From a virus: a stretch of 64,000 nucleotides of DNA. A program made the position numbers and the translations under genes. The stretch's first letter is position 1; each line of letters opens with the position of its first letter. The notes below the pieces were generated by a model. That model did not search any database and was not told where the DNA came from. It was given only the letters and a program-made list of their open reading frames with translations. Location of the stretch: positions 1 through 64,000 of the IMG/VR virus record IMGVR_UViG_3300027973_000030; one strand, 5' to 3'. This document shows positions 4,859 to 55,111 of this stretch, in pieces.

Positions 4859-5386
4859 TTAATTTAAGAAAGCTTTGCCGCTAAATGAAGCTGAAAAGTT
4901 TAAGGTTAAAGTGTTATTATTATTATAAACTACTTCTCCTATTATTTCAGAGCTAGCAGTATCAACGATAGTTACAGAAGGATATTTATTCAAGTTATGA
5001 GTTATACTCCAAGATGAAGCTGGTGTAGATTGATCATGGATATAAGCATAATTAAAATTATCTGATATAAACGTATTATCTCTATAGGTTAGTTTTACAG
5101 TTCTATTAGTAGTTGTATTAGTAATACCAATAGTCATAACTGATCTATTATAAGATTCAGCTATTGAAGCATATTGAGCATCTGTTAAACCTATTGGTTT
5201 AAAACTATTACCATCCCAACTGTAAAAAATGGTAACATCTTTATCATATACTATTAAACCTTTATCATTACTATTTAATGTTGACGCTAACGTTGTACGT
5301 TCTACAGTTGATATAGGGTATAGTTTAGCATTAAGAATCTGGTTCTTATTAAAATCATAATCAACATATATTGTTTGTAGTGCCAT
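4859..5386 (-). CDS. Short tail-fibre-like protein with shared C-terminal domain
   Basis: A 175-residue protein. The N-terminus (VDYDFNKNQILNAKLYP) is like that of the next fibre protein. The middle holds a YDKDVTIFYSWDGNSFKPIG segment that resembles the carbohydrate- or assembly-type segments of phage fibres. The C-terminal domain (WSITHNLNKYPSVTIVD, ending in GKAFLN) is clearly related to the C-terminus of the protein encoded at 5386-5982. Its start codon overlaps the stop of that gene by one base (TAATG), suggesting coupled translation. Probably a minor fibre or baseplate-fibre adaptor; exact role unknown. Confidence 0.75.
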   Translation of the reverse strand: MALQTIYVDYDFNKNQILNAKLYPISTVERTTLASTLNSNDKGLIVYDKDVTIFYSWDGNSFKPIGLTDAQYASIAESYNRSVMTIGITNTTTNRTVKLTYRDNTFISDNFNYAYIHDQSTPASSWSITHNLNKYPSVTIVDTASSEIIGEVVYNNNNTLTLNFSASFSGKAFLN

Positions 5387-23675: not shown

Positions 23676-23707
23676 GTACATGCAGCTTAATTTCTAGCTG
23701 CATGTAC
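23676..23707. repeat. Perfect 12-bp inverted repeat
   Basis: GTACATGCAGCT (23676-23687) and AGCTGCATGTAC (23696-23707) are exact inverted copies around an 8-nt loop TAATTTCT. It lies 33 nt after the first early gene. There is no T-run after it, so it is more likely an RNA processing or stability element, or a protein site, than a terminator. The half-site GTACATG/CATGTAC is repeated nearby (CCATGTACGTTAC at 23712). Confidence 0.75.
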
Positions 23708-27995: not shown

Positions 27996-28017
27996 AAGGT
28001 TAAAGTTAGTATTTAGA

Positions 28018-28048
28018 AGAGGAGGGCACTGTTCTCCTCTTTCTTTTA
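28018..28048 (+). terminator. Intrinsic terminator
   Basis: AAGAGGAG (28018-28025) and CTCCTCTT (28035-28042) form a perfect 8-bp stem with a 9-nt loop, followed by TCTTTT. The next start codon is at 28076. Confidence 0.85.
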
Positions 28049-28075: not shown

Positions 28076-28363
28076 ATGAAGTTTAATAATCCTCGTATAC
28101 AAAAAGGTTTTGGGCAAGCTACTAGTTTAGTAATGCGTGATCCTGATATATCCCTACGAGACAAAGGTTTATATGCATATTTATGTACTTACGCTAACGC
28201 TATAAGCAATGAACTTGTAGTTAGTGTACATAGAATGTCATCAGAATGTGGTGTTACTACGTCAACAATCAAACGTACACTTGAATCTCTAGAAGAAAAA
28301 GGTATCATTAAACGTATATATCAAGGACCAAGAGTTACAAAACTTACAGTTATTCTAAAATAA
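28076..28363 (+). CDS. Winged-helix DNA-binding protein, replication-initiator-like
   Basis: A 95-residue protein matching the helix-turn-helix domain seen in phage and plasmid replication initiators: RDKGLYAYLCTYAN (residues ~27-40), then MSSECGVTTSTIKRTLESLE with the recognition helix, and the wing KGIIKRIYQGPRV. The HTH_36 family has this layout. There is no further domain, so it is more likely a regulator or origin-recognition factor. It lies before structured region B and could control that transcript. Confidence 0.75.
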   Translation: MKFNNPRIQKGFGQATSLVMRDPDISLRDKGLYAYLCTYANAISNELVVSVHRMSSECGVTTSTIKRTLESLEEKGIIKRIYQGPRVTKLTVILK

Positions 28364-28722
28364 AGATCTTTAAGGCAACGGGGCCAAGTTCAGATAGTTA
28401 GGTATAAGTACGCTAGTTATAAGTATAATTCTTGAGCCCTACGCCATGTTATTGGCTGATTGCAGTAGACACTTAAGACCCCTCGGGGCAGAGTCGGCTG
28501 TAATAGCTAAATGTTAAAGTCTGATCTCAGGTGCCTACATTATATTCTGTTGAAAGCAAACGGTTCCGTCATTGAGTAATTAAACGACATATTAGTAAAA
28601 TAAATTTCTGTCATATGAAAGATGGTCATGTACTTAGTAGCAGTTCTGATGATAATTAATGTAGTCCCTGAGATAGACTTTTAGCTCAGTATTTAATTAC
28701 AATTCCATATAAATTCATTTAA
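28364..28722 (+). ncRNA. Structured non-coding region B with a long bulged helix
   Basis: A 359-nt gap that contains strong RNA structure. AAAGTCTGATCTCAGG (28516-28531) pairs with CCTGAGATAGACTTT (28667-28681) over 15 bp with a single bulged G at 28523. Stacked inside, CTACATTA (28535-28542) pairs with TAATGTAG (28657-28664) over 8 bp, leaving a ~115-nt apical part. Upstream are GGGC-AAG/CTT-GCCC (28381-28388, 28431-28439), GCCA/TGGC (28443-28446, 28453-28456), CCC-CTCG-GGG near 28479-28488, and an alternative pairing of AGAC-TTAA (28467-28476) with TTAA-GTCT (28514-28522). No start codon with a sensible frame lies inside. Confidence 0.7.
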
Positions 28723-29457
28723 ATGAAAGATTCTAAAGTAGTTGGAAAGATCTTCCAAACAAAAAACTATTCTCAGTTCAAATACAGAGCTGATAATAGA
28801 CCCGTGGACCAAGCTAACGTTCACAAATTAGTAAAAAGCTTTGAAGTAATGGGACAAAAAATTCCAATCAAAGTAGACTCTAGTATGAATGTACTAGATG
28901 GACAGCACCGCTTAAAAGCTTGTGTGCAGTTAAAAATGCCTGTTGTCTTTATTATAGATGACGAAGACATGACAACATCAGAGATAGCTCAATTACAAGC
29001 TACATCTACAAAATGGAACTATGCTGATTATGCACATAGTTTTGCAACTGATGAAAGTTTAATTGATTACAGATTGTATAATAACTTCTGTACGACTTAT
29101 TCAGAATTCCCTCACAGCACAGCTATACTTATGTTAAGTAATTTACGTGCTGCAGGTGGTAATGCTGATCAAGTATTTAAATCAGGTAAGTTTAAAATTA
29201 AAAGTTTTAGTAAAGCAAAAGAAATTGCTGAAACTTTAAGAAAGATGTCTATATATTACAAGAGTTACAACCGTAAAGGTTTTGTATCATCTGTAATTGT
29301 TATGATGAACCACAAAGACTTTAGTCAGGAAAGACTATTTAGAAAGCTTCCAAAGCGTTGTAAAGAAATTCATGATTTCAGCAAAACTGAAGATTATTTG
29401 GATACTTTACAAGATATCTATAACTGGAAAGAACCTAAAAAAGTATATTTCCATTAA
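28723..29457 (+). CDS. ParB-like (sulfiredoxin-fold) nuclease-domain protein
   Basis: A 244-residue protein. Residues 25-90 match the ParB N-terminal domain: RPVDQANVHKLVKSFEVMGQ, then PIKVDSSMNVLDGQHRLKAC with the hallmark DGQHR, followed by MPVVFIIDDEDMT. The C-terminal 140 residues are helical (NFCTTYSEFPHSTAILMLSN) without the ParB HTH core that I could recognise. Phage ParB-like proteins include DNA-binding regulators and nucleases. It stands alone between structured regions B and C. Confidence 0.85.
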   Translation: MKDSKVVGKIFQTKNYSQFKYRADNRPVDQANVHKLVKSFEVMGQKIPIKVDSSMNVLDGQHRLKACVQLKMPVVFIIDDEDMTTSEIAQLQATSTKWNYADYAHSFATDESLIDYRLYNNFCTTYSEFPHSTAILMLSNLRAAGGNADQVFKSGKFKIKSFSKAKEIAETLRKMSIYYKSYNRKGFVSSVIVMMNHKDFSQERLFRKLPKRCKEIHDFSKTEDYLDTLQDIYNWKEPKKVYFH

Positions 29458-29749
29458 AATATTTAAAACTGATACACAGAACAACCAGAGCATGACTTGG
29501 ATGGTGTCGTAAGATGATTATATCAGTTTTAATGTTATTACTAGATTGAAGTCAACAGCAATAAAACCGGCTGTGTGAAATGTCCTCTTAGTATTGCACT
29601 GTAGAGAGCCACGACAAAACCGGATATCTAGGAGTAGTTAGTGAAATTTCCACGTATGGAAGCTACTTATATTATCCGAGTAGTAGAATGCACTTATAAA
29701 CAGACGGTAAATCATTCCAATGGTGCCCCGATAAAAGTAACTAGCGTTT
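29458..29749 (+). ncRNA. Structured non-coding region C
   Basis: A ~290-nt gap ending in the terminator at 29750. TTAAAACTGATA (29463-29474) pairs with TATCAGTTTTAA (29521-29532) over a perfect 12 bp, enclosing a 46-nt domain. Further on are AGTAG/CTACT (29633-29637, 29663-29667) enclosing TTCCA-CGTA-TGGAA (29648-29661), and GAATG/CATTC (29686-29690, 29713-29717). AAAACCGG occurs twice (29563-29570... and 29616-29622 region). With a terminator directly after it, this looks like a stable transcript of ~320 nt. GGATGG-TGT-CGTAA at 29499-29512 recalls region A. Confidence 0.7.
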
Positions 29750-29787
29750 AAGATGGTGGAGTTTATTTTTTCTCCACCATCTTTTTT
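29750..29787 (+). terminator. Strong intrinsic terminator
   Basis: AAGATGGTGGAG (29750-29761) and CTCCACCATCTT (29772-29783) form a perfect 12-bp stem with a T-rich 10-nt loop, followed by TTTT. It ends the region C transcript; the next start codon follows after only about 12 nt, so the downstream gene must have a promoter inside or rely on readthrough. Confidence 0.9.
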
Positions 29788-29799
29788 AAATTTAAAGTC

Positions 29800-30078
29800 A
29801 TGGATAACAAGCATATGTTATTACTCTGTAGCTGTTATAGCTCAGAACATCAGATGATTATACACTTAGATGAAGGCGGTGACATGTTTGCTCCAGAAGC
29901 ATACGTACACGTACATCTAGTAAGACGGTCCTTTTGGTACCGTGTGAAATATGGGATTAAATACATATTTGGATACACATCTAGATATGGAGCATGGGAT
30001 GAATTTATATTAGATAAAACTCACGTTGTTTCTCTTAGAGAAATAGCTAAACATTTAGATGATGAAACAGTATACTAA
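29800..30078 (+). CDS. Small early protein
   Basis: A 92-residue protein (MDNKHMLLLCSCYSSEHQMI) with CSCYSSEHQ near the N-terminus, a pattern I have seen in hypothetical proteins of Bacteroidota phages, and a basic aromatic middle (RRSFWYRVKYGIKYIFGYTS). Function unknown. It overlaps the next gene by 20 nt. Confidence 0.6.
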   Translation: MDNKHMLLLCSCYSSEHQMIIHLDEGGDMFAPEAYVHVHLVRRSFWYRVKYGIKYIFGYTSRYGAWDEFILDKTHVVSLREIAKHLDDETVY

Positions 30079-54389: not shown

Positions 54390-54626
54390 ATGGCAATATA
54401 TAGTAATGAAACAGACCCAAATGTTAATGATTGGGATAAGTCAGAAGATGCACAGATATCTAAGCAGGAACTATTAAATAAAGCTGCTGAGCTAAAAAAC
54501 TGTAATGACTTAATTAAAGAATTAGTAGCTCTCCTTGAATATGAGGAAGCTCTAACTGTAGATCCAAGATCCCAACAGAGGATGAGTGCTAAACTAATAG
54601 AACTAGGATTATGGCCATCAAGATAA
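54390..54626 (+). CDS. Small helical protein
   Basis: A 78-residue helical, acidic protein (MAIYSNETDPNVNDWDKSED). It overlaps the next gene by 16 nt. Function unknown. Confidence 0.55.
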   Translation: MAIYSNETDPNVNDWDKSEDAQISKQELLNKAAELKNCNDLIKELVALLEYEEALTVDPRSQQRMSAKLIELGLWPSR

Positions 54627-55111
54627 CTACAGAAGAAATAATAGCTAAGTATCCAAAGATATTTGAAGACTATCCTGGTAATCCAGGAAGATGTAATTGG
54701 CATGGTGTACCGACAGGTTGGTTACCAATTATAGATGACTTGTGTGGTTCTATACAAGAATACATAGATCATCATAGATACTCTATAGACAATCCTGATT
54801 ATATAGAAGGATCTACATGGAACTATGATGATATAACTACGCATAAATCTATAATGGTATCTCATGATCAAGTTACCTGCACACAGATGAAAGAAAAGTT
54901 TGGTGGACTCAGATTCTATGAAAATGGTGCAGATAAAAAAGTAGATGGTATGATACACTATGCAGAATACTTAGCTGATAATACATGCCAAGATTGCGGT
55001 TCTAGAGAAGATCTAGGAAGAACATCAGGTTGGATTTCTACAATATGTAGAACCTGTGCAATTGGTAATGGTGATAGAGCTATGGCAGCATGGAAATCTT
55101 TAAACGAATAA
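54611..55111 (+). CDS. Phage zinc-ribbon protein family (WHGVPTGW/EKFGGLRFY type)
   Basis: A 166-residue protein. It has YPKIFEDYPGN near the N-terminus, CNWHGVPTGWLPIIDDLCGS, then QMKEKFGGLRFYENGAD and a CxxC pair followed by another (TCQDCGSREDLG, ICRTC). This combination is a common phage hypothetical family in which a C-terminal zinc ribbon follows an EKFGGLRFY motif. Its function is not established. Confidence 0.75.
   Translation: MAIKITTEEIIAKYPKIFEDYPGNPGRCNWHGVPTGWLPIIDDLCGSIQEYIDHHRYSIDNPDYIEGSTWNYDDITTHKSIMVSHDQVTCTQMKEKFGGLRFYENGADKKVDGMIHYAEYLADNTCQDCGSREDLGRTSGWISTICRTCAIGNGDRAMAAWKSLNE

Follow-up and report, generated by a model that had tools for sequence, protein, structure and literature searches.

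The window analysed here is a stretch of 64,000 nucleotides (positions 1 to 64,000 of IMG/VR virus record IMGVR_UViG_3300027973_000030), and its region C, between a ParB-like gene and the next gene downstream, is a conserved structured RNA with compensatory pairing beyond the controls. All features of the locus lie on the + strand. A helix-turn-helix (HTH) protein gene of 95 aa (28076-28363; Pfam HTH_36, E 4.8e-9), found upstream of C in all 11 distinct loci, serves as the anchor of the locus. Behind it come region B, which holds the RNA modules B1, B2 and B3, the ParB-like gene of 244 aa (28723-29457; phrog_12305, ParB-like, E 2.9e-30), the core of C (29539-29747), an intrinsic terminator (29750-29787) and a gene of 92 aa (29800-30078; phrog_12660, E 3.7e-8, a virion structural protein by PHROG).

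The 131,294-base virus record that contains the window (G000) encodes a terminase that shares about 25% identity with terminases of crAss-like and Flavobacterium phages, and the best annotated match of its capsid is that of Leptolyngbya phage Lbo-JY46 (28.6% identity). On the strength of these identities we call G000 a distant crAss-like relative, a label of our own and not a formal assignment.

Homologs and secondary structure of the C core

Searches with the ParB-like protein gave six contigs from five distinct phages (one identical to the window), in each of which C stands directly behind ParB. In an unfitted alignment of five distinct C sequences 19 of 46 pairs had changed on both sides and 96.1% of the cells were paired, values as high as these occurring in none of 500 shuffles; the structure tested had been drawn on those same sequences. 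A covariance model (R1) was run over 49 records, mostly capsid relatives, and gave two further strong matches. Gene scans with the upstream HTH gene and the downstream 92-aa gene, together with an R1 search over 81 sources, raised the number of distinct versions to 11. These sources comprised the window, three stretches and 77 of the 90 loci from the gene scans; the other 13 were left out because they lay on the same contigs as others or, to judge from match values that were identical, apparently belonged to one phage with them. With the final model (R2), 12 records out of 37 each give a single C match, at E 1e-39 or better; no other match reaches E ≤ 0.01.

In the alignment of all 11 sequences both partners have changed at 20 of 42 pairs, and 95.8% of the cells are paired. 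None of 500 shuffles comes as high, and when the partners are slid by 1-3 columns only 1-5 such pairs are left. The earlier note on this DNA had proposed covariation in homologous phages as a check on its RNA, and these counts show such covariation for the core. Counts of further standard pair types do not exceed those of the shuffles (33, against a mean of 37).

We infer from the comparative data that C folds as two domains. The first, C1 (29541-29631), contains P1 (29541-29546/29626-29631), P2 (29553-29559/29570-29577) and P3 (29585-29592/29598-29606), all from the covariation test, and a two-pair CC/GG helix (29609-29610/29622-29623) that is invariant and hence gives no covariation signal. 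The second, C2 (29637-29745), is closed by the long-range helix P4 (29637-29642/29740-29745) and encloses P5 (29657-29661/29715-29719) and P6 (29662-29668/29678-29684), which likewise went through the covariation test. P5 was absent from the model behind the alignment, yet two of its six pairs have changed on both sides; this TGGAA/TTCCA pairing has been retained as an ordinary nested helix. P6, like the CC/GG helix, is near-invariant, so that it draws little covariation support. A CGG/CCG pseudoknot drawn on the five sequences (helix 8, 75% of cells paired) was dropped, being by eye unconserved in the alignment of 11.

Wider searches gave no additional versions. The exact pattern TGGAAGCTACWTRTAT hits 37 stretches in IMG/VR, with C only in contigs already known and the remainder apparently coding or chance. 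In all, DNA patterns were run twice against IMG/VR and once against GTDB genomes, with no new supported C version. A second C pattern matched four stretches in GTDB genomes, the best R1 value being E 0.13 for one stretch. A scan with the ParB alignment returned the same six contigs and none that was new, and a DNA search of annotated phages found no match. No record of a cultured phage with the element turned up among those covered.

Strand and coding capacity

Over the helices of C and B3 there are 43 G·U cells and one A·C cell. This excess points to + strand RNA as the transcribed form. Region C has no open reading frame (ORF) of 60 aa or more, those listed being a 46-aa + strand ORF that overlaps the start of the region and a 58-aa ORF on the − strand, and stop codons occur in every frame of all 11 homologous cores. 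Region C is non-coding. The proposal of the earlier note that a structured non-coding RNA lies here holds.

The 12-bp hairpins and the terminator

That note had started from two hairpins, both of which are present as described. The first is a perfect 12-bp inverted repeat (29463-29474, TTAAAACTGATA; 29521-29532, TATCAGTTTTAA) around a 46-nt loop, here called module F (29463-29532). Perfect inverted repeats of at least 12 bp (loops of 3-60 nt) number three in the whole 64-kb window, and region C holds two of these. At least one such repeat turns up in 1 of 2000 dinucleotide shuffles of the region, and whole-window shuffles contain 0.43 on average; both hairpins of region C are far beyond chance. 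The third repeat of the window (23676-23707) lies outside this locus. The second hairpin of region C is the terminator, with a perfect 12-bp stem (29750-29761/29772-29783), a 10-nt loop and then a T-run, and a folding-energy z of -7.3. The 12-bp domain has a z of -2.1 and the region including both hairpins -2.5, a modest signal that is due to the two hairpins.

The two hairpins fare differently in the relatives. Module F is an optional insert, present in the window and in locus L194 only (2 of 11); its loop core is invariant, and between the two stems there are one compensatory change and two G·U changes. It was therefore ruled out as the defining feature of the RNA. Next to C, a perfect terminator stem of 10-12 bp stands in 9 of the 11 loci; that of L175 is imperfect (by eye) and L157 has none. 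Of the unit 29458-29787 that the earlier note had delimited, the terminator stands, but the conserved unit is 29539-29747 plus this terminator, and the 12-bp stem does not close it. Conservation of that stem, the lack of which the note had named as a ground for refuting its reading, is nearly absent, yet the RNA rests on other helices. A terminator-like hairpin of 12 pairs also lies upstream of the HTH gene (28016-28042), and may bound the transcript on its 5′ side.

In 10 of the 11 loci C lies 5′ of a terminator (one of the ten judged by eye) followed by a gene, an order that would suit a cis-regulatory attenuator or riboswitch acting on the downstream gene via the terminator; the size and conservation of C also suit an aptamer. 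The terminator arms, however, vary between loci, and in a simple longest-run test over 10 loci the longest complementary run averaged 7.5 for a locus's own core and 7.4 for foreign arms. Antiterminator pairing between aptamer and terminator was rejected on this equality. Moreover, the gene after C is not constant (a 92-aa or a 143-aa gene), and in L157, which has no terminator, another module, a tRNA and a transfer-messenger RNA (tmRNA) come next. We consider such a switch rather unlikely.

Region B, the ParB-like gene and the contiguity of B and C

Modules were surveyed with nhmmer in 38 sequences, five near-duplicates having been removed beforehand; alignment A9 omits L202, of which the 3′ boundary had been wrongly called. 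B1 (28372-28445) is an nhmmer family found in 8 of the 38. B2 (28450-28512) was located by a motif search (copy L173), and nhmmer, which finds it in 13 other loci, missed the copy of the window; it is closed by a motif of the form outer stem-CUGAU-inner stem ... AUAG. B3 (28516-28681), present in 20 of the 38 sequences, has a 15-bp closing helix with a conserved bulged G and matches its own covariance model, R3. In this helix 8 of the 15 pairs have changed on both sides and 99.5% of the cells are paired (15 sequences). R3 detects B3-like elements in 11 of 46 records, a count that includes the window's own record and some of the sequences used for building, and its matches lie, by coordinates, downstream of the HTH gene. 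None was found in the seven annotated phage records among the 46, where R2 gave a lone fragment of 31 positions (E 0.058) that we judged to be chance.

The CUGAU/AUAG closure frames both B2 (28451-28510 as the closed unit) and B3, with 30 instances in 40 loci and none in each of 20 shuffles; five of the 30 come from near-duplicate loci and two stand at the very start of their island. This bulged-G closure, seen by eye also in module M2, may be a recurrent 3D motif.

The ParB-like protein matches no family in a Pfam search. Its predicted model is of low confidence (pLDDT, the predicted local distance difference test, 62), and the top ranks of a Foldseek search are ParB-N structures. The gene occupies the linker between B3 and C in 5 of the 11 C loci and is absent there in the other six, in which the closing helix of B3 is followed by C after 13-16 nt. 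A profile search for ParB in the seven records with contiguous B and C, some of them fragments, found none. Regions B and C do lie on either side of the ParB-like gene in the window, as the earlier note had it; its description of C as an independent, 'second' RNA fails, because 6 of the 11 relatives have B and C side by side with no ParB between them. Natural variants of the locus indicate that ParB and the 12-bp stem are dispensable for the element, and that B and C are its two halves. A connection with the distant ParB encoded by Flavobacterium phage lillamy9-1 was considered and discarded; densely annotated genes surround it and the record has no R2 or R3 match.

Two other explanations bear on this arrangement. 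B and C might be independent small RNAs at one locus, with separate transcripts and functions. Modules are indeed gained and lost separately, 9 of the 20 B3 loci lacking C, a T-run follows the closing helix of B3, and in L178 and L180 no module comes after B3. Against this, C is always accompanied by B3 (11 of 11), and at a distance of 13-16 nt wherever ParB is absent, so that we hold separate RNAs to be possible but unlikely. Alternatively, B and C could be DNA sites of the centromere or origin type for the protein encoded between them, a protein of ParB fold with hairpin-rich DNA on either side. However, B and C are kept without a detected ParB in the seven contiguous records, G·U lies far above A·C, and the helices are long-range and branched, unlike short palindromic boxes. 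This explanation appears very unlikely.

Relation to known RNA families

A cmscan search of the whole window at gathering cut-offs gave no match among the Rfam 15 families, and at E ≤ 5 no GOLLD, ROOL, OLE or intron match was obtained for four loci. ARAGORN and RF00023 found no tRNA or tmRNA in the window and no tmRNA in the window's own record. Searches of open-access literature on structured or non-coding RNA, tmRNA and covariance models in crAss-like phages, on GOLLD and ROOL, and on large phage RNAs turned up no report of the element, subscription literature being mostly outside the scope of this search. The element is apparently a large structured phage non-coding RNA outside the named families, and an apparently undescribed class.

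GOLLD and ROOL are described as phage RNAs that are often found near tRNA islands (PMC12286853). The present element resembles GOLLD, which is several hundred nt long, is encoded by phages or prophages, often lies near tRNAs and has a conserved 3′ part and a less conserved 5′ part, and also ROOL, a large RNA of phages near tRNA islands (PMC12286853); the tRNA surroundings are seen in relatives and not in the window's own record. The element differs from both in giving no covariance-model match, and from GOLLD also in that the linker holds the ParB ORF and not a tRNA; the homo-oligomeric cage is a trait of GOLLD and ROOL. OLE is likewise a large ornate bacterial RNA, but it too gives no covariance-model match here, and OLE RNA is not known from such a locus. 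An analogy with GOLLD and ROOL, not homology, is the best reading.

Introns that bear an ORF also come to mind for a large structured RNA whose linker may hold one, and the element might be a remnant or variant of a self-splicing intron in which ParB is the inserted ORF. There is, however, no Rfam match and no split gene, both the HTH gene and the next gene being complete, and we find this scarcely credible.

Proposed role

The explanation we favour, and regard as probable, is that C is the 3′-terminal domain of a modular, trans-acting + strand non-coding RNA that lies behind the HTH gene, has its own terminator and has B as its 5′ part. Transcription would start behind the HTH gene and end at the terminator, with region B forming the 5′ part and region C the 3′-terminal folded domain of the same element. 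In some phages the ParB-like gene would sit in the linker, and B, the ParB ORF and C would then be carried on one transcript made during infection. By analogy with GOLLD and ROOL, the RNA may be a trans-acting scaffold or particle that serves the RNA or translation side of infection, a role that we would rank above that of a switch for the next gene.

Several points weigh against this explanation. The 209-nt core between the hairpins has a folding-energy z of -0.28, no better than chance, and its fold of lowest energy is not the one found by comparison; folding energy was accordingly dropped as evidence for the core, which is flagged by the comparative data instead. The sample is small, 11 distinct C sequences all from one phage group, and the alignment of these (A7) had been fitted to most of the tested structure, although the unfitted five-sequence alignment agrees. 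The choice of helices somewhat favours G·U over A·C. The ParB-like gene stands behind B-type or island modules in eight genomes, which leaves room for a functional link with ParB. That B and C act as one functional molecule, and not as neighbouring RNAs, we infer.

Large structured phage RNAs are among the least understood RNAs, and to our knowledge the functions of GOLLD and ROOL are still not known. The element adds to them a class that has apparently not been described before, in which covariation is clear and natural variants exist. Such variants, in which modules are gained or lost and a protein gene comes and goes between the RNA halves, offer tests already at hand of which parts are required and of whether the halves work as one molecule.

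Variation of the locus in relatives

From the HTH gene to the next genes, the locus in relatives carries differing sets of modules, tRNAs and tmRNAs, and it is a mosaic of RNA modules. A tRNA or tmRNA at the locus occurs in relatives only, the window's own record having neither. At E ≤ 0.001 a tmRNA was detected in 17 of 37 records, 11 of them over the curated cut-off: in 1 of the 12 records with C (G006) and in 16 of the 25 without it. The records are related to one another and some are incomplete, and archaeal control genomes too gave matches at E ≤ 0.001 in this search; we treat the near-exclusion of C and tmRNA as a lead only. Like phage tmRNA in these relatives, C occupies this locus; it differs in that RF00023 finds nothing in the window's record. 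That C is itself a tmRNA was rejected, as ARAGORN and RF00023, used to look for a tRNA-like domain and tag frame, find nothing in the window or the record.

A more speculative version, which we consider improbable, would see the element as a modular RNA machine assembled from shuffled closed domains, several with the CUGAU/AUAG bulged-G closure; C would fill the tmRNA slot of the relatives, the large RNA would serve the phage in acting on ribosomes or on translation that has stalled, and it would carry the ParB ORF as a passenger or a partner.

The tmRNA genes over the Rfam cut-off at this locus include L157 3582-4006 (−), L228 2754-3171, L203 4316-4726, L200 4192-4665, L188 4535-4959 and L193 5738-6177; the predicted tag of that of L157 ends APVAIAA. 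Two further modules were noted. Module D (L187 4691-4802; L198 and L199 3967-4085) lies downstream of the HTH gene and has a conserved GATTAGGAATAT..ATTCCGAAA stretch. Module E (L157, reverse, 5255-5325; L193 5255-5325; L214 2819-2889) lies 5′ of tRNA or tmRNA genes in all three. In G011 (L183) and L180 the RNA element is followed by the 143-aa gene, a homolog of which lies at 54611-55111 of the window; L182 and L176 have an ORF of equal length in this place. Together they represent gene shuffling around the element.
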